NCBI RefSeq assembly: GCF_008039615.1
Contig: NZ_VDUZ01000021.1
Location: forward strand, 62,001-126,000
DNA: 64,000 bases
Direction of reading: 5' to 3'
Origin: Vineibacter terrae
GTDB lineage: Bacteria > Pseudomonadota > Alphaproteobacteria > Reyranellales > Reyranellaceae
In this document: piece by piece, positions 1 to 7,516 of the stretch
Numbering within the stretch: position 1 is the first letter of the stretch
Layout: each line of letters starts with the position of its first letter
Made by a program: the position numbers and the translations under genes
Notes under the pieces: generated by a model
What the model saw: only the letters and a program-made list of their open reading frames with translations
Databases searched by the model: none
Told to the model about the DNA's origin: nothing

Positions 1-846
1 GGCGCCAGCCTCAACCTGCTGACCATGAGCTTTGGCCATGCCTTGCCCAAGGTGCCGCTGATCCACGTCGATGCGGTGCGCGGCAATATCGGCCGCTGGC
101 AAGCCGCCGACCTCGCCGTGGTCGGCGACGCACGCCTGGCGGCCGAGGCCCTGCTCGAAGCCCTGCCGGCGGGCTCCAATGCCGAGCGGCCGTTCCACGC
201 CGAGGCGACCCGCCGGTTCCTTGCCGATTTCGACCCTGCCAAGGACTTCCAGCCCGCCAACACGCCGCGCACGCTCGATCATCGGTCACTGGGCGTCGCG
301 CTCGACCGGCTGCTGCCGCAGCAGCGCAACCTGGTCTACGACGCCGGCAACTTCCTCGGCATCGTGCCGTACCTGTCGGTGCCGAACCCCGGGCACTTCA
401 AGTTCACCAGCGATTTTGCGTCGATCGGCATGGGCTTCGGCACCGCGCTGGGCGTGGCGCGCGGCCGCCCCGACGAGACGACGGTGCTGGTGGTCGGCGA
501 CGGCGGCTTCCTGATGACCATGGGCGAGCTGGAGACCGTGGTGCGCGAGGACCTGCCGCTGGTCATTGTGCTGATGAACGACTGCGCCTACGGCGCCGAG
601 CTGCATTTCCTCAAGCTGCGCAACCTGCCGGTGGCGAAGTCGGTGTTCCCGGATGTCGACTTCGCGCCCATTGCCGAGGCTTTCGGCTTCCGCGCCGCGA
701 CCGTCCGCACGCTCGACGAGTTGCAGTCGCTGGCGTCGCTGCTGGCCAAGCCGGACGGACCGGTGTTCCTGGACTGCAAATTGAATGCCGCCGTGGCGGC
801 CCCGTTCATGAGCGAGGTCCACGAGCACGAGACGCGGCAGCGCTAG
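1..846 (+). CDS. ThDP-dependent enzyme, acetolactate-synthase-like, C-terminal part (5' truncated by window)
   Basis: The open frame enters from the left edge and ends at TAG 844-846, so only about the last 281 residues are visible. The C-terminal half shows a thiamine-diphosphate binding signature: VVGDGGF followed about 25 residues later by LMNDCAYGAE (the GDG...N motif that holds Mg-ThDP). The context resembles the acetolactate synthase/benzoylformate decarboxylase superfamily, which decarboxylates 2-oxo acids. The stretch before it looks like the central domain. The exact substrate cannot be assigned without the N-terminal domain. The next gene on this strand begins 2.5 kb away and the gap holds a group II intron. 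Confidence 0.8.
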   Translation, partial: GASLNLLTMSFGHALPKVPLIHVDAVRGNIGRWQAADLAVVGDARLAAEALLEALPAGSNAERPFHAEATRRFLADFDPAKDFQPANTPRTLDHRSLGVALDRLLPQQRNLVYDAGNFLGIVPYLSVPNPGHFKFTSDFASIGMGFGTALGVARGRPDETTVLVVGDGGFLMTMGELETVVREDLPLVIVLMNDCAYGAELHFLKLRNLPVAKSVFPDVDFAPIAEAFGFRAATVRTLDELQSLASLLAKPDGPVFLDCKLNAAVAAPFMSEVHEHETRQR

Positions 847-847
847 T

Positions 848-940
848 ACTTGGAATCGCTGGTCGCTGACACACCTGTCATCCCGAGCGCAGCGAGGGAT
901 CTCCTGCCAGCGACGGACGGTGCGCCATTCGCGGGAGATC
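848..940. repeat. Palindromic intergenic repeat, distal arm and loop (3' exon side of the intron)
   Basis: Bases 867-897 (TGACACACCTGTCATCCCGA...) are an almost exact inverted copy of 2968-2998. The similarity extends more loosely to 848-866 versus 2999-3017. Read on the minus strand, the sequence after the intron 3' end begins GATCTCC and the mirror arm carries GGAGATCCCTCGC. Removing the intron would therefore give one long hairpin with arms of about 30 bp and a loop of a few tens of bases. This looks like a REP-like dispersed palindrome that served as insertion site. A partial relative (CCATCCCGAGCGAGGCGAGG) lies near 50818. Confidence 0.7.
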
Positions 941-2968
941 GCCGGGTAGGTGGGGACGTTTCCGCCCCCACCCCCCACAGATCCGGACGTGCAGAATTAC
1001 CGCATCCGGTTCTTCGCGCTGGAGCTTCGCTCACGTGGTGTAGCGATGGATGATGCTGGGCCGTGGCAACGGCAGCCGCTTGAGCAGCTCGTTCATGTCA
1101 CTCCAGCAGAACGTACTTTCGTTGTCCCGCCGTGACAGCCACTTCTTCCAGACCCGCACGAGCTCATGCCCGTACCACCCCACCCGCCGGAAGTTTCCCG
1201 ACATGCCATAGTAGGCATAGTGGCCTCGCGCCATCTGTGTCAGATGGCGGTGCTGCTCCGTGATCGACCGATGCCGGTGACGCCGGCACCAGTCGTCCAC
1301 CGCAGCCAGCCCCCGCGCCAGCCGGCTTTTGGCCGTCTGCTGCCGCACCACGTCGTAGCCTCGCCGTGACTTGCCCCACACGTGGGTGAAGCCCAGGAAG
1401 TCGAACGTCGTGCCGCCCGTGCCCGGGTGGGTGTCCCCACCCGACCGGGGAGGCCGGAAGTCGACGAAGCGCGTCTTCTCAGGATGGAGCATCAGCCCAT
1501 ACTTCGCCACGCGCTTGCCCAGCACCGCCAGCACCCGCTCGGCGTCGCGGACCGCCGCGAACGCCATCACGAAGTCGTCGGCGTACCGGACCAGGGTGCT
1601 CGGACCGCGCATCCGGGGCCGCACCGCCTTGACGTACCACTCGTCCAGCACGTGGTGCAGGAAGATGTTGGCCAGCAACGGCGATACGACCCCGCCTTGC
1701 GGCGAGCCCTGCGTCGGGTGCTGCAGGAGCCCGTCTTCCAGGACCCCTGCCTTCAGCCACTTGTCGATCATCCGACGGATCACACCGTCCGTGACCCGCT
1801 GGTCGAGGAAGGCTCGCAGATGCGGGTGCGAGATCGTGTCGAAGTACTTGCGTATATCGACGTCCAGCACCCAGCGCAGTCTCCGGTCCATGCAGGCATT
1901 GCGCAGATCCTGCAGCGCCTGATGGGCCGAGCGCCCCGGTCGGAAGCCATACGAACAGTCCACAAAGTCCTGCTCGTAGACCGCCTCCAGCACCATGACG
2001 ATCGCCCGCTGCGCCACCTTGTCTTCCAGGGTCGGGATGCCCAGTGGCCGTTGCGTGCCGTCCGCCTTCGGGATGTACGTCCGTCGCACCGGCGGCGCCC
2101 GGTAGCGGCCCGACTTGATGCGCCCCAGCAGGTCCTCAAGGTTGGCCTGCAGGGTCGCCTCGTAGTCGGCCGCCACCACGCCGTCGATGCCCGGGGCGCC
2201 ATCCTTGCGCGTCAGCCGCCACGCCTCCAGCATCCACTCAAGGTCGATCACGTGATGCAGCGAGCTCAGCGCCACGCCGCGCTTGCTCCTCGCCAGATCG
2301 GCTATCCATTGTCGTTTCGTGGACAGGTTCGCCAGGCTCAGTGTCCCCTCCCGTGTTGCCCGCCAATGGCTCTCCATGCCGCGGCGCCTCCCTTCCCTCG
2401 GCCGGGTCCCGCCAAGCACGGTTCCCCAGCGTCATCAGTACTATGAAGGCGCTACGACGCCCCGCACCGCATCCCCGCTCGCTTATTGGGTTCGCTCGCA
2501 GGTACCACGCCGACCTCCTGTCTTCGTGCTCGCCGCAGCGCTCCCGCACGGCCGGAGGCGCCGCACGGGCCAGGACCTTTGTTTCGCCGGTGGTCCACAA
2601 TCCCGGCTCTCGTCGCGTGGACAATACGGGACCTCCCAGGTTCCCTGGCGACCCATCCTGTGCCTCTGCCCCGCTCCAGGACCCCGGTCGGACCGTCGCT
2701 CCTGGCCAATCACGCAGCGACGATGCTGCCCCCGCAGCGAGGACCACGAAGGCTCCGGCGATCAGAGCGATTTCGGGGCTTGCCACGGGGCTTCAGCACA
2801 CGCTGTCTACGCTTCAAGAGTACCCTCGCAGGTACCCAGGCAAGACTCGCTTCCGGCTGGCCGGCTCTCAGCCTCTACCGCGCGGGAGTCGAACCCGCTG
2901 GATCGCTTCAAAAGGTTTCAGGTCACTCACATGCCCTTCCTCCTTTCCAGGGCTTACCCTGGCGCTAC
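941..2968 (-). mobile_element. Group II intron (about 2.03 kb) with intact domains V and VI
   Basis: On the minus strand, downstream of the reverse-transcriptase gene, positions about 1013-980 fold as a domain V hairpin (GAACCGGATGCGG ... CACGTCCGGAT). This is followed by a G-rich domain VI stem closed by a GAAA loop at 957-960. A single unpaired A at 947 sits in the CCU-A-CCC strand, as expected for the branch point, and lies 7 nt from the inferred 3' end at 941. The 5' end is placed near 2968 (GTAGCG, close to the GUGYG consensus) because joining 2969 to 940 restores the repeat around it. About 550 nt of RNA domains lie upstream of the ORF. Boundaries are uncertain by 1-2 nt. Confidence 0.8.
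1031..2419 (-). CDS. ltrA: Group II intron reverse transcriptase/maturase
   Basis: The 462-residue protein contains the RT blocks in order: GIDGV, RTYIPKADGTQRPLGIP, SYGFRPGRSAHQAL, VLDVDIRKYFDTI, GSPQGGVVSPLLANI, the catalytic YADDF and FDFLGF. A C-terminal maturase (GIIM-like) region with YYGMSGNF follows. It would splice its host intron and reverse-transcribe it at new DNA targets. No C-terminal HNH endonuclease with paired cysteines is visible; the protein ends shortly after the maturase region. This fits a C-like lineage that uses hairpin or nicked targets. The frame is open throughout, so the protein may be active. A later ATG at 2377 (MESHW) could be the true start. Confidence 0.93.
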   Translation of the reverse strand: MLGGTRPREGRRRGMESHWRATREGTLSLANLSTKRQWIADLARSKRGVALSSLHHVIDLEWMLEAWRLTRKDGAPGIDGVVAADYEATLQANLEDLLGRIKSGRYRAPPVRRTYIPKADGTQRPLGIPTLEDKVAQRAIVMVLEAVYEQDFVDCSYGFRPGRSAHQALQDLRNACMDRRLRWVLDVDIRKYFDTISHPHLRAFLDQRVTDGVIRRMIDKWLKAGVLEDGLLQHPTQGSPQGGVVSPLLANIFLHHVLDEWYVKAVRPRMRGPSTLVRYADDFVMAFAAVRDAERVLAVLGKRVAKYGLMLHPEKTRFVDFRPPRSGGDTHPGTGGTTFDFLGFTHVWGKSRRGYDVVRQQTAKSRLARGLAAVDDWCRRHRHRSITEQHRHLTQMARGHYAYYGMSGNFRRVGWYGHELVRVWKKWLSRRDNESTFCWSDMNELLKRLPLPRPSIIHRYTT

Positions 2969-3017
2969 CTCGCTGCGCTCGGGATGACAGATGTGTCACC
3001 TACCCGCGATTCCAGGT
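2968..3017. repeat. Palindromic intergenic repeat, proximal arm (5' exon side of the intron)
   Basis: The sequence CCTCGCTGCGCTCGGGATGA and the bases following it, up to 2998, mirror 867-897 with one or two mismatches. Weaker matching continues to 3017 (GCGATTCCA versus 848-866). It forms the other half of the palindrome interrupted by the group II intron. Confidence 0.7.
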
Positions 3018-3365
3018 GTCGATCGGCACCGTGACACCACCTTCATGCACCGGCGCTGATGCAAGGATCTTGCGGTGTCGGCGCAAGCCTTGCCAGCGTC
3101 ACCGGCATTTCGCACACCGGCCCAGCGCGCACTCGGCGGGACATCGAACTCATTTCAGCCGCAGTTGTGATCGACGCAAAAGCCGCGGCAACCTTCGTGC
3201 CGTGGCAAGCCGGCCGTGCATCGATCCGACAGTGCCGACGACGCGGCACCGCACGGCGACTATTCCACAAAGCGACGGCGTGACGCGTTGAGTGACACCG
3301 GTGCCGTCGTTACCCCTCGGCATCATTCTCTCACAATTATTTCAAGCGGGACGCACAAAGTACGC
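3018..3365. other. Gene-free upstream region of the type I secretion cassette
   Basis: These 348 bases contain short open frames but none with a convincing ribosome binding site or recognisable product. The last 40 bases are AT-richer (CTCACAATTATTTCAAGC) and probably hold the promoter of the cassette. No clear -35/-10 pair is visible. Confidence 0.4.
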
Positions 3366-5828
3366 ATGAGTACCAACATGACCACGAGTGACCTCGGAGC
3401 AGCCATCACCGCCGCCATTCAGGACGGCCATGTCGCCCATCTCGATGGCGGCACCTATACGATCACGTCGCCGATCGTCGTCCGTGCCACCGACATCAAC
3501 CGAGGTGCGCTCGGCATCGACGGCCACGGCGCCACGCTTGTATCGCAGGTGACCAGCGGCGAGCCTCTTATTCAGATCGTCGCCGATGCCGGCGTGGATC
3601 TCCGCTACCTCACTCTGTCGAACTTCAAGATCGTGGGGAACGGCAGCGAGGGCAATGGCATCGAGATCGTCGCCGACGGCAACGACCGCTGGGTCTACAA
3701 CTGGTCCATCGACAACGTGACCGTGGAGCAGGTTGGCGGCTACGGCCTCGATGTGCAGGGCAGCGTGTTCGAGGGTGTCGTCTCCAATTCCTGGATGAAC
3801 GACAATGCCAAGGGTGGTGCTCACTTTGCGCACAGCGCCGACGACGGTCAGGTGAGCGCGCTGCGCTGGTTTGGCGGCGGCTTCAAGGACAATGGCGGCG
3901 ACGGCCTCACGCTCGACAATGGCGCCCGCGACATGAGCATCGACGGTGCTTCCTTCGTCGGCAACAATGGGGCGGGCATCAGCGCGCCATACGGCATCAC
4001 CTCCGTGAGCTCCAGCACGTTCGAGGACAATCATGGTCCCGGGGTGTGGTTCCAGAACTATGGCAACTTCTACGACGACAAATTCGTAACCTCCGGCCCG
4101 CAGACAGTCGGCATCAGCGGCTATCTGGCCGGCGGCGACACGATCAGCGCGACTCTTGTCGGCAACACCAGCACATACACAGGCGGGGGATCCGACCCGA
4201 CTGCGCTGGCCGACCTGCAGGGCAGCGGCGGGGTGTTCCTGTCGGCCGAGAGCGGCAAGATCGTCACCGGGCCGGCTGTCTCGGTGAACGATGCAGGCGC
4301 TGGCAACATGGCCGATGTGTCGGTCGACGCGCAGGGCGTGGTGTCGCCCATGCTGGCACCGGTCACCGCCGCCACAACGCAGAACAACGCGAGCAGCGAT
4401 GGCAGCAGCGCGCTGGAGGCGGCACTGGCCGAGGGGATCGCAGGCGGCATCATCGCCCACCTGACGGACGGGGCCTACACGGTCACTTCGCCGATCGTCA
4501 TCAACATCACCGACTCGAGCCAGACGGCCATAGGCGTCGACCTTGGCGGCGCCAAGATCGATTCGCAGATTACCGATGGCAGGCCGGTCATCGAGATCAT
4601 CGTCGCTCCCGGCGTGGACGTGAGCAACCTCACGCTGTCGAACTTCTCGGTCTTCGGCAACGGCAGCGAGGGAGACGGGATCAGGATCATCGCCGACGGC
4701 AGCGATCGTTCGATCCAGGACTTGCGCATCAGCAACGTCAACGTCGAGTACGTTGGCGGCATCGGCCTCGATGTCGTGGGCAACATCTCGCAGGGCACCG
4801 TGTTCAATTCATGGATGCACGGTGACGGCCAGGGTGGCGCGCGCTTCGCCAACAGCGCTGGCGGCGGCATTGTCAGCGGAATCGAATGGGTGGGCGGCGG
4901 CTTCCGCAAGAACGACGTCGCCGGCCTGATCGTCGACAACGGCGCGCATGACGTCGCTGTGAAGGGCGCATATTTCGTGGAAAACAGCGGTCCGGGCATC
5001 GCCGCGACATCCGGCATGACGTTGGTGCAGGGAAGCGGCTTCGAGAACAATCACGGGGCCGGCGCGATCGTTCACGGACCTGCAGCCTTCATTGATGACT
5101 CGTTCTCGACCTACGGCGTGCAGGAGGTCGGCGTGGGCGGCTTTCTGGACGGCGGGCAGATCACACTGACAGGCATCGGCAGTGAATACTACGGCGAGGG
5201 CACCGACCCGACGACGCTGGCCAATGTCCAGGGTGACGGCACGCTTGCGATCGCAAGTGGCGGCAACGTCGTGGTGGGGCCGAACGTGACGGTGACGGGT
5301 GGCGATCCGAGCAGAGCCGCGGCGACGGACGTGGCGCTTTCTGCAGGGCAGAGCGCGGTCGAAACCGACCACGCGCAGGCTCTGGTCGGAACGGTCGGCG
5401 ACGATGTCATCGAGGGCACCAGCGGCACCACCGAGATCATGGGCGGTGCCGGCGCCGACGTGCTGACCGGTGGTTCCAGCGGGACCACCTATGTCTACGG
5501 CACCGTGGACGATTCGACGGCAACGGCGCCCGACACGATCACCGGTTTCCAGCCGGGCTACGACAAGATCGATTTCACCAACATCGCGGGCATCAAAGCC
5601 ACTGATGGTGTGCCGCAGTTCCAGGGTGACATCACCGGCAGCGGCAGCGCGACGCTGGAGGCGCACAGTGTCGCGTATGTCGAGGCAGGCGGGAACACGC
5701 AAGTGCTCGTCAACACGACGGACACGCCCGAGACCGTGACTGCCACGGACACCCATGCGGCCGACATGAAGATCATGCTGCTGGGGGTGAATCTCGGTCT
5801 CGGCGCCAGCGATTTCCATCACGCATGA
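3366..5828 (+). CDS. Secreted tandem beta-helix protein with RTX-like C-terminus (type I secretion cargo)
   Basis: The 820-residue product starts at ATG 3366 (MSTNMTTSDLG). An open frame reaches back to 3216, but its codons there do not look protein-like. It holds two copies of a roughly 300-residue right-handed beta-helix domain (about residues 8-315 and 345-640). Shared landmarks are DGGTYTITSPIV/DGAYTVTSPIV, LTLSNF..GNGSEG, FNSWM/SNSWM and DPT.LA..QG. The tail has GTVGDDVIEG and one good RTX nonapeptide (GGAGADVLT), then a serralysin-like DTITGFQPGYDKIDF region and a terminal LGLGASDFHHA that resembles a type I secretion signal. There is no N-terminal signal peptide. Its stop overlaps the ABC exporter start (ATGA). 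Beta-helix folds bind or cleave polysaccharides in pectate lyases and alginate epimerases, but no catalytic motif is recognised here. Confidence 0.85.
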   Translation: MSTNMTTSDLGAAITAAIQDGHVAHLDGGTYTITSPIVVRATDINRGALGIDGHGATLVSQVTSGEPLIQIVADAGVDLRYLTLSNFKIVGNGSEGNGIEIVADGNDRWVYNWSIDNVTVEQVGGYGLDVQGSVFEGVVSNSWMNDNAKGGAHFAHSADDGQVSALRWFGGGFKDNGGDGLTLDNGARDMSIDGASFVGNNGAGISAPYGITSVSSSTFEDNHGPGVWFQNYGNFYDDKFVTSGPQTVGISGYLAGGDTISATLVGNTSTYTGGGSDPTALADLQGSGGVFLSAESGKIVTGPAVSVNDAGAGNMADVSVDAQGVVSPMLAPVTAATTQNNASSDGSSALEAALAEGIAGGIIAHLTDGAYTVTSPIVINITDSSQTAIGVDLGGAKIDSQITDGRPVIEIIVAPGVDVSNLTLSNFSVFGNGSEGDGIRIIADGSDRSIQDLRISNVNVEYVGGIGLDVVGNISQGTVFNSWMHGDGQGGARFANSAGGGIVSGIEWVGGGFRKNDVAGLIVDNGAHDVAVKGAYFVENSGPGIAATSGMTLVQGSGFENNHGAGAIVHGPAAFIDDSFSTYGVQEVGVGGFLDGGQITLTGIGSEYYGEGTDPTTLANVQGDGTLAIASGGNVVVGPNVTVTGGDPSRAAATDVALSAGQSAVETDHAQALVGTVGDDVIEGTSGTTEIMGGAGADVLTGGSSGTTYVYGTVDDSTATAPDTITGFQPGYDKIDFTNIAGIKATDGVPQFQGDITGSGSATLEAHSVAYVEAGGNTQVLVNTTDTPETVTATDTHAADMKIMLLGVNLGLGASDFHHA

Positions 5829-7516
5829 AGACAGAAATCGCACGTCTGGTGCGCAGCAGCAGCGGTCCCTACCTGGGGACCGCTGCTGCCTTCAGCCTGG
5901 CCATCAACCTGCTCTATTTGGCCGGTCCACTCTACATGCTGCAGCTTTATGACCGCGTAGTGCCCAGCAGCAGCGAGATCACGCTGCTGATGCTGACGCT
6001 TGTCTTGCTGCTGGCCTATCTGGCGCTGGCCGGCCTCGATGCCGTGCGGGCACGCGTGCTTACGCGCGTAAGCGTACGCCTCGACCGGCAGATAGCCCCA
6101 AAGGTCATGACGGCGATCATCGACGGTCGAGCAGGCGCAGGCGGGGCGCGCAGCGAGCTTCTGCGCGACTTCGACAGCGTGCGCCAGTTCCTTGGCGGCG
6201 CGGGCATCCATGCCATTTTCGACCTGCCCTGGGCGCCGCTTTATATCGTCGTCATCTTCATGCTGCATTGGGCGCTTGGCGCCTTCGCGCTGGGCTGCGC
6301 CCTTCTGCTGATCCTGTTGGCGCTGGTCAATGAATGGCTGATACGCGCCCCGCTGGCCGACGCCAACATCGCGGCAGCGCGCAACTACAGCTTCACCGAG
6401 ATGAGCCTGCGCAATCGCGATGCCATCCGCGCCATGGACATGACGGAGGGTCTGCTGCGGCGCTGGGGTCAGGACCGCGATCGCACGCTGGAGCGTCAGG
6501 TCGTGGCCTCCGATCGCGCGGCGGCGATGCAGAGCGGCGTGAAGTTCTTGCGGCTCTCCATGCAGTCCGTGATCCTGGGGCTCGGCGCGTGGCTAGTCAT
6601 CGAGCGCAATGTGACTGGCGGCGCGATGTTCGCGGCGAGCCTGCTGCTTGGCCGTGCCCTGCAGCCGGTCGAGCAGATCGTCGGCACCTGGCGCACGCTG
6701 GTCTCCGTGCGTAGCGCATGGCGACGCCTGAGCGATCTCTTCGCGGCCCGTGCCGTCAGCGCCCCGACCGTGTCGCTGCCCCGGCCAAGCGGACATCTTG
6801 CCGTCGAGGAGCTGAGCTTCGCGGTGGCGGGCACCCCCAAGCCGCTGCTGCGTGGCATCTCGTTCGCGCTTCAACCGGGCGAGGTGCTGGGCGTTATCGG
6901 CCCGTCGGGCGCCGGCAAGTCCACCTTGGCACGCCATCTTGTCGGCGTGCTGGCGCCGAGCGCCGGCGCGGTGCGGCTCGACGGCGCCGACGTCAGCGCC
7001 TGGGCACGCGGCACGCTGGGGCAGCATGTCGGCTACCTGCCGCAAGATATCGAGCTGTTCGCCGACACGGTCGCCGCCAACATCAATCGCTTCAAGCCGG
7101 GTGATGACGACGCGATTGTCCGCGCCGCGCGCATGGCGGGCGTGCATGAGCTGGTCCTGCGCCTGCGGCAGGGCTACGACACCCAGGTGGGAGAAGGCGG
7201 CGCGGTGCTTTCCGGTGGTTATCGCCAACGCCTAGCGCTGGCGCGCGCCGTCTACGGCGATCCGAGCCTGGTCGTTCTCGACGAGCCGAGCTCCAACCTC
7301 GATGCCGAGGGTGACGCGGCGCTCAGCCAGTGCATTCGCGAGCTCCGGCAACAGGGCACGACCGTCGTCCTCGTCTCCCACCGCCTGAGCACGGTCGGCC
7401 TTGCCGACAAGCTGCTGGTGCTCAAGGACGGCAAGGTCGAGCTGTTCGGCCCGGGCGCCGAGATCCTCGCGCGGCTGGCCCGCGGCCCGCAGCTTCAGGC
7501 CGTGAGGTCGGCGTGA
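5825..7516 (+). CDS. Type I secretion ABC transporter, PrtD/LapB-like permease-ATPase
   Basis: This is a 563-residue half transporter. An N-terminal membrane domain with hydrophobic helices (about residues 17-320) is fused to a nucleotide-binding domain. Walker A is GPSGAGKST (about residue 359), the signature is LSGGYRQRL (about 462, with Tyr replacing the usual Gln), Walker B with D-loop is VVLDEPSSNLD and the H-loop is VSHR. The size and lack of a peptidase domain fit the PrtD family, which drives export of RTX proteins across the inner membrane. It overlaps the cargo gene upstream and the fusion-protein gene downstream by 4 bp each, so all three are probably translated together. Confidence 0.93.
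   Translation: MKTEIARLVRSSSGPYLGTAAAFSLAINLLYLAGPLYMLQLYDRVVPSSSEITLLMLTLVLLLAYLALAGLDAVRARVLTRVSVRLDRQIAPKVMTAIIDGRAGAGGARSELLRDFDSVRQFLGGAGIHAIFDLPWAPLYIVVIFMLHWALGAFALGCALLLILLALVNEWLIRAPLADANIAAARNYSFTEMSLRNRDAIRAMDMTEGLLRRWGQDRDRTLERQVVASDRAAAMQSGVKFLRLSMQSVILGLGAWLVIERNVTGGAMFAASLLLGRALQPVEQIVGTWRTLVSVRSAWRRLSDLFAARAVSAPTVSLPRPSGHLAVEELSFAVAGTPKPLLRGISFALQPGEVLGVIGPSGAGKSTLARHLVGVLAPSAGAVRLDGADVSAWARGTLGQHVGYLPQDIELFADTVAANINRFKPGDDDAIVRAARMAGVHELVLRLRQGYDTQVGEGGAVLSGGYRQRLALARAVYGDPSLVVLDEPSSNLDAEGDAALSQCIRELRQQGTTVVLVSHRLSTVGLADKLLVLKDGKVELFGPGAEILARLARGPQLQAVRSA

Follow-up and report, generated by a model that had tools for sequence, protein, structure and literature searches.

A group II intron interrupts one arm of a long palindromic repeat in the alphaproteobacterium Vineibacter terrae, and the locus raises the question of whether the intron landed there by chance or homes to the repeat. 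We analysed a stretch of 64,000 nucleotides (hereafter the window; contig NZ_VDUZ01000021.1, positions 62,001 to 126,000), in which the intron lies between the genes for a TPP enzyme (25-846) and a beta-helix/RTX-like protein (3216-5828). A scan of 800-3300 revealed neither a sigma-70-like promoter nor a terminator. Further along, the region 3216-7516 holds the beta-helix protein, which has a serralysin-type C terminus, and then an ABC transporter-like ORF (5825-7516, judged by eye); the two look like a type I secretion pair.

Intron boundaries within an inverted repeat pair

The intron spans 2027 nt on the minus strand (Table 1) and has the parts by which a group II intron is defined: domain I (RF02005), domains V/VI (RF00029), and, within domain IV, an RT/maturase that matches the NCBIfam model TIGR04416 above its cut-off (355 bits). 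The intron ORF is endonuclease-less: Pfam gives RVT_1 only, the NCBIfam match stops at residue 431, and no D/En region was found in the 462 aa. For comparison, we retrieved 80 loci with the window RT and aligned the first 360 nt of the window intron with those of 45 of these loci, the remaining ones having no recognised 5' end. Pairing of the EBS1 loop with the exon sets the register that places the intron 5' end at T2967 (TAGCG), and a common 3' motif places the 3' end at C941. Among the 61 of 81 introns whose domain V was compared (window 941-1014 included), this domain begins with GAAC instead of GAGC in 42, including relatives inserted into IS66 genes (see below); we take this to be the catalytic-triad position.

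The two arms that flank the intron (867-897 and 2968-2998) are inverted copies of each other at 30 of 31 positions, so the near-exact symmetry pointed out in a first-pass annotation of this DNA was real. Excision of 941-2967 joins the flanks into GCGAGGGATCTCC, identical to the intact arm. The same annotation had proposed that deleting 941-2968 restores the repeat; the restoration holds, but that deletion is one base too long and gives GCGAGGATCTCC, one G short. The joined flanks also match an intact paralogous repeat pair (L226) over 90 nt. Together with the exact restoration, this match confirms that the intron landed in one arm of a REP-like inverted pair. An empty orthologous REP was not found: a genus mate (G074) has the upstream TPP gene (87%, window 1-841), with no significant similarity past that gene.

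Table 1. Coordinates of the intron, its guide sequences, and the repeat that it interrupts
Feature	Position in window	Strand	Evidence
Intact REP unit of inverted pair	877..904	+	identical to the search pattern (779 matches in the genome)
Inner spacer and 3'-exon remainder of interrupted unit	905..940	.	joined flanks match L226 (G000:C81), 90 nt
IBS3 (G), first 3'-exon base	940..940	-	pairing with EBS3
Group II intron	941..2967	-	5' TAGCGCC...CTACCCGGC 3'; 46 aligned 5' ends, EBS1 pairing register, exact repeat restoration
Domains V-VI and intron 3' end	941..1014	-	RF00029, 40.3 bits vs cut-off 40
Intron-encoded RT/maturase	1031..2419	-	462 aa, YADD intact, endonuclease domain not found
Part of ribozyme domain I including exon-binding loops	2672..2891	-	RF02005, 99.1 bits
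EBS3 (C)	2679..2679	-	complements first 3'-exon base, 88% of 34 introns vs 41% shuffled
EBS1 CCTCGC	2737..2742	-	6/6 pairs with IBS1; strongest 5'-exon covariation, 43 introns
EBS2 CGCTC	2765..2769	-	5/5 pairs with IBS2; second covariation signal
IBS1 GCGAGG, 5'-exon end, in repeat core	2968..2973	-	pairing register
IBS2 GAGCG, in repeat core	2976..2980	-	pairing with EBS2
Interrupted REP unit, 5'-exon side	2968..2998	-	30/31 identical to 867-897

Far from being unique to this locus, the repeat is dispersed throughout the genome. Allowing up to three mismatches, the pattern GTCATCCCGAGCGCAGCGAGGGATCTCC matches the 8.76-Mb genome 397 + 382 times vs 0 + 0 for a reversed-pattern control, i.e., 779 units, a count that includes the interrupted arm itself (3 mismatches). 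At 28 bp each, these units make up ~0.25% of the genome, and 30 loci fetched from the repeat search contained 17 distinct inverted pairs with inner spacers of 25-32 nt. The window repeat starts with (C/T)GTC-AT and forms inverted pairs. It has the features of CGTC-tagged REPs (CGTC/TGTC at the terminus, a stem that begins with AT, high copy number, mostly inverted dimers), an assignment that follows the definition in the text of PMC3733652, in the part available to us, and not the consensus figures of that paper. The same part describes a CGTC and a GTAG superfamily of REPs, the former as being without a dedicated transposase.

The many genomic targets foreseen in the first-pass annotation thus exist as potential sites, whereas only one full intron copy occupies any of them. 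One copy against 779 units suggests that homing is rare, recent, or repressed in this genome. A second group II RT encoded there (L034, G000:C7:190719-191567) has one stop, is only distantly similar to the window RT, and, as far as seen, does not lie in a REP.

Exon-binding guides and the hairpin alternative

To locate the guides, the first 360 intron nt were scanned against the 5' exon in 43 introns, 3 of the 46 having been dropped for short flanks. The best signal came from EBS1 against exon positions -6 to -1 (on average 5.49 of 6 bases paired vs 2.41 with shuffled exons), and the next independent one from EBS2 against positions -13 to -8 (3.84 vs 2.08). Kinship inflates these means, as many introns share the IS66 target; a full six-pair EBS1 is found in 36 of 43 introns and, in a count that is independent of kinship, in 24 of 30 distinct IBS1/EBS1 combinations. 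EBS3 is a single base at intron position 289, assessed in 34 of the 46 introns (Table 1). A 6-bp EBS1, an EBS2, and an EBS3 that pairs with the first 3'-exon base are the features of group IIB, and the window intron forms 6, 5, and 1 such pairs. Hence, exon recognition is of the IIB type, and each of the three window elements fits the core of the repeat. By chance, GAGCGNNGCGAGGG would be expected 0.07 times per 64 kb, or ~10 times in the genome by scaling; set against 779 REP units, this suggests that most guide-fitting sites would be REPs.

Alternatively, the intron might read the shape of the REP hairpin with little sequence pairing, as class C introns do at terminators and attC sites, an analogy that had also been drawn in the first-pass annotation. 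Targets are indeed palindromic for the window intron and for two relatives described below (L111 and L069), and palindromic sequence abuts the insertion site in L064, L077, and L082. The 5' exons of L077 and L082 are alike and palindromic; a combined pattern, which was badly set, gave 0 matches in two genomes, own loci included. The best PDB matches of the window RT are chains labelled retron-type RT or group II RT (5hhl and 7uim), ahead of GsI-IIC, and we take 5hhl and 7uim to be class C as well. The pairing data point the other way: an EBS1 of ~6 bp covaries with its exon, and so do EBS2 and EBS3, while the available part of PMC7923331 gives IIC introns an IBS1 of 3-4 bp, no EBS2, and insertion after a hairpin. 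The window intron has none of these three features, and its insertion point lies inside the 3' strand of the stem, not after the stem. We also compared the folding energy of the final 32 nt of the 5' exon with that of neighbouring windows in 41 introns; the rest of the 46 whose 5' end is known were dropped because their upstream sequence was short or contained N. Across these 41 sites, hairpin stability was not above the local background: the 28 non-IS66 sites had a mean rank of 0.545 (KS p 0.55) and the 13 IS66 sites a mean rank of 0.66. Single sites (L077, L082, and L083) rank low in this test, and a hairpin effect may operate in a subset of sites. Overall, we consider shape recognition unlikely for the window intron, and the IIC analogy is not supported by the comparison; a IIB intron would thus use palindromic repeats without the IIC-type hairpin rule.

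Insertions in relatives and the case for homing

A match between guides and target is a property of any group II intron that homes, so the lone window copy is no proof of preference. We also examined 75 genomes of the same family. DNA matches to the intron, mostly short pieces, occur in 17 of the 75, and junction-pattern searches located true intron junctions in only two, the genome of the window itself (G000) and G048, which belongs to another genus; the remaining hits carry 1-2 mismatches and are about as frequent as those of unrelated sequence. The 5' junction pattern had 0 matches in viral contigs. G048 has three intron ends (two 3' and one 5'), all at contig ends and each at the same site within the corresponding repeat (CAGCGAAG/TAGCG, CGGC/GATCTC, and CGGC/GACCTC, with the slash marking the junction). 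Over the paired repeat, one of the two 3' exons is the reverse complement of the other, which places the insertions in opposite arms of two copies, and, judging from these ends, at least two insertions are needed. The ends have diverged from the window intron (156/201 and 79/90 identical). The G048 assembly retains only the RT C terminus of the intron, the intron body including the EBS elements being absent, and its 365 kb contain 6 matches to the core at 2 mismatches or fewer, vs 0 for the reversed control, some of the 6 being the intron sites themselves.

These relatives bear directly on two further readings. A single chance landing in a REP that is no homing site is consistent with the presence of only one full copy in the genome and with the more distant relatives, which lie in IS66 genes and at unrelated sites, but the repeats cover only ~0.25% of the genome, and at least two independent G048 insertions share the position; we regard such a landing as very unlikely. 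Even less credible, to our mind, is passive carriage, in which REP pairs would have been copied along with an intron that inserted once: REPs are dispersed, so a carrier could have spread, but the insertions in G048 differ in the arm of the composite repeat that they occupy, and the REP that holds the window copy is a different sequence variant.

With an intron, an exact junction, a target family, three pairings, and at least two same-position insertions in another genus, all directly observed, we consider it very probable that this is a mobile, endonuclease-less IIB-type intron whose EBS2, EBS1, and EBS3 fit the core GAGCG-NN-GCGAGG/G of a high-copy REP and that it was inserted there by reverse splicing. 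The idea of a dispersed repeat as homing site, put forward in the first-pass annotation, is supported both by the fit of the guides to the core and by the G048 relatives at the same repeat position in at least two copies. According to the accessible part of PMC8914252, RmInt1 and other introns that lack an endonuclease insert into single-stranded DNA at the replication fork. By analogy, the guide RNA would pair with unfolded or single-stranded REP DNA, probably at replication forks, reverse splicing would place the intron in the core, and the nascent strand at the fork may serve as primer. Splicing and retrohoming are predicted to be functional. Our claim is that the intron uses CGTC REPs; the spreading of REPs by the intron is no part of it.

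Intron copies at unrelated sites, which would argue against a repeat-specific intron, were found only for the more distant relatives, many of which lie in IS66 genes or at unrelated sites. Of the introns whose ends read CCAGC or CCAAC, 13 were tested, and all 13 are in antisense orientation to a W.H-type motif (WAHARRK or similar), which we take to denote IS66 transposase. On Bradyrhizobium plasmids, relatives overlap genes that carry an IS66 transposase annotation; one intron (L072) was assigned to the IS66 group on the strength of its near-identity with L107/L108 rather than of its own 5' exon. Two other relatives lie in palindromes that carry GTAG at one end. L111 (Bradyrhizobium sp. 139), whose RT is read in two frames, is located at the end of a GTAG-tagged palindrome with 62 + 62 copies in its genome (control, 0 + 0); its EBS1 pairs at 6/6 positions and its EBS2 weakly (2/6). 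The site of L069 (Bradyrhizobium), between ACCCAT and CCTAC, is a variant of the palindrome ATGGGTTTCGCNNNGCTCWACCCAT, which has 10 copies in the genome of L069 and 22 in G075. We also noted a 63-nt 5' remnant of an L111-like intron (L212 and L233, the latter at G075:C93:39400-40000) that comes after GCAATCCGG outside the repeat, in sequence that looks coding; there, IBS1 may suffice.

An RT tree of the window and 62 of the 80 loci (those left out are mostly from L120 on) groups L111, L069, and L071 together (support 100), L071 having too little 5' flank for a site comparison, and places the window with the IS66 introns L066/L103 (support 83). Separate placement of the window suggests that REP use may have arisen more than once. 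The RT of L134 has the highest identity (81% over 239 columns), but its match stops after residue 247, where other sequence follows. The 3' end of the L081 intron runs straight into an intron 5' end (CTCGGC, then TAGCGACAGG), which may reflect a circular form, copies in tandem, or an artefact of assembly. The introns of L106/L118, from MAGs assigned to different phyla, and those of L083/L137, also from separate MAGs, are nearly identical within each pair, which suggests recent transfer or binning errors.

More broadly, REPs may be a stable homing niche of this IIB-type lineage, a proposal to which we give about even chances. The REP position would have been kept while the core drifted (GCGAGG here, GCGAAG in G048), with EBS1 predicted to follow, and sister introns would have moved separately to other REP families (L111 to a GTAG-type repeat with 124 copies, L069 to another GTAG-type repeat). 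If so, each host gives tens to hundreds of gene-free sites.

Relation to known systems

RmInt1 and other class D/IIB3 introns, as described in the part of PMC8914252 at hand, share with the window intron the absence of an endonuclease domain, pairing by EBS1, EBS2, and EBS3, and a multicopy mobile target. The target of RmInt1 is an insertion sequence (ISRm2011-2), whereas the window intron occupies a short palindromic repeat, and the likeness is one of pairing, whichever the ORF class of the window intron may be (D, E, F, or g1-g4 in the scheme of PMC3552965). The IS66-targeting relatives (e.g., L063, L067, L107, and those on Bradyrhizobium plasmids) belong to the same lineage and have homologous EBS positions, but occupy IS66 transposase genes, in the WAHARRK region and in antisense orientation. 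The IIC introns found at terminators and attC sites are likewise endonuclease-less and have inverted-repeat targets; they use a short IBS1 and a hairpin with no EBS2 (PMC7923331, as far as available), whereas the window intron shows the full linear pairing.

On the side of the repeats, the window REP is CGTC-like and those of L111 and L069 are GTAG repeats in terms of the superfamilies in the accessible text of PMC3733652, where the word intron occurs 0 times. The available part of a review (PMC4424553) names three target specificities of group II introns: homing sites, terminators, and attC. The open-licence literature searched contained no case of a REP that serves as homing site and for which all three guides have been identified, and a sequence-string search of papers gave 0 matches. 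With known guides and hundreds of empty, near-identical sites in one genome, it would become testable why the intron stays single-copy. The closest precedent is the group II intron of Pseudomonas putida KT2440, with 2 of 9 copies at REPs (table in Tobes and Pareja 2006, PMC1525189, seen in part); the REP association is alike, a likeness by description, as the source passage gives neither junction nor guide pairing. A group II intron at REPs is thus already known. The match of guides to REP described here would connect retrotransposing introns with REPs, both of them common in bacterial genomes, by a readable code.
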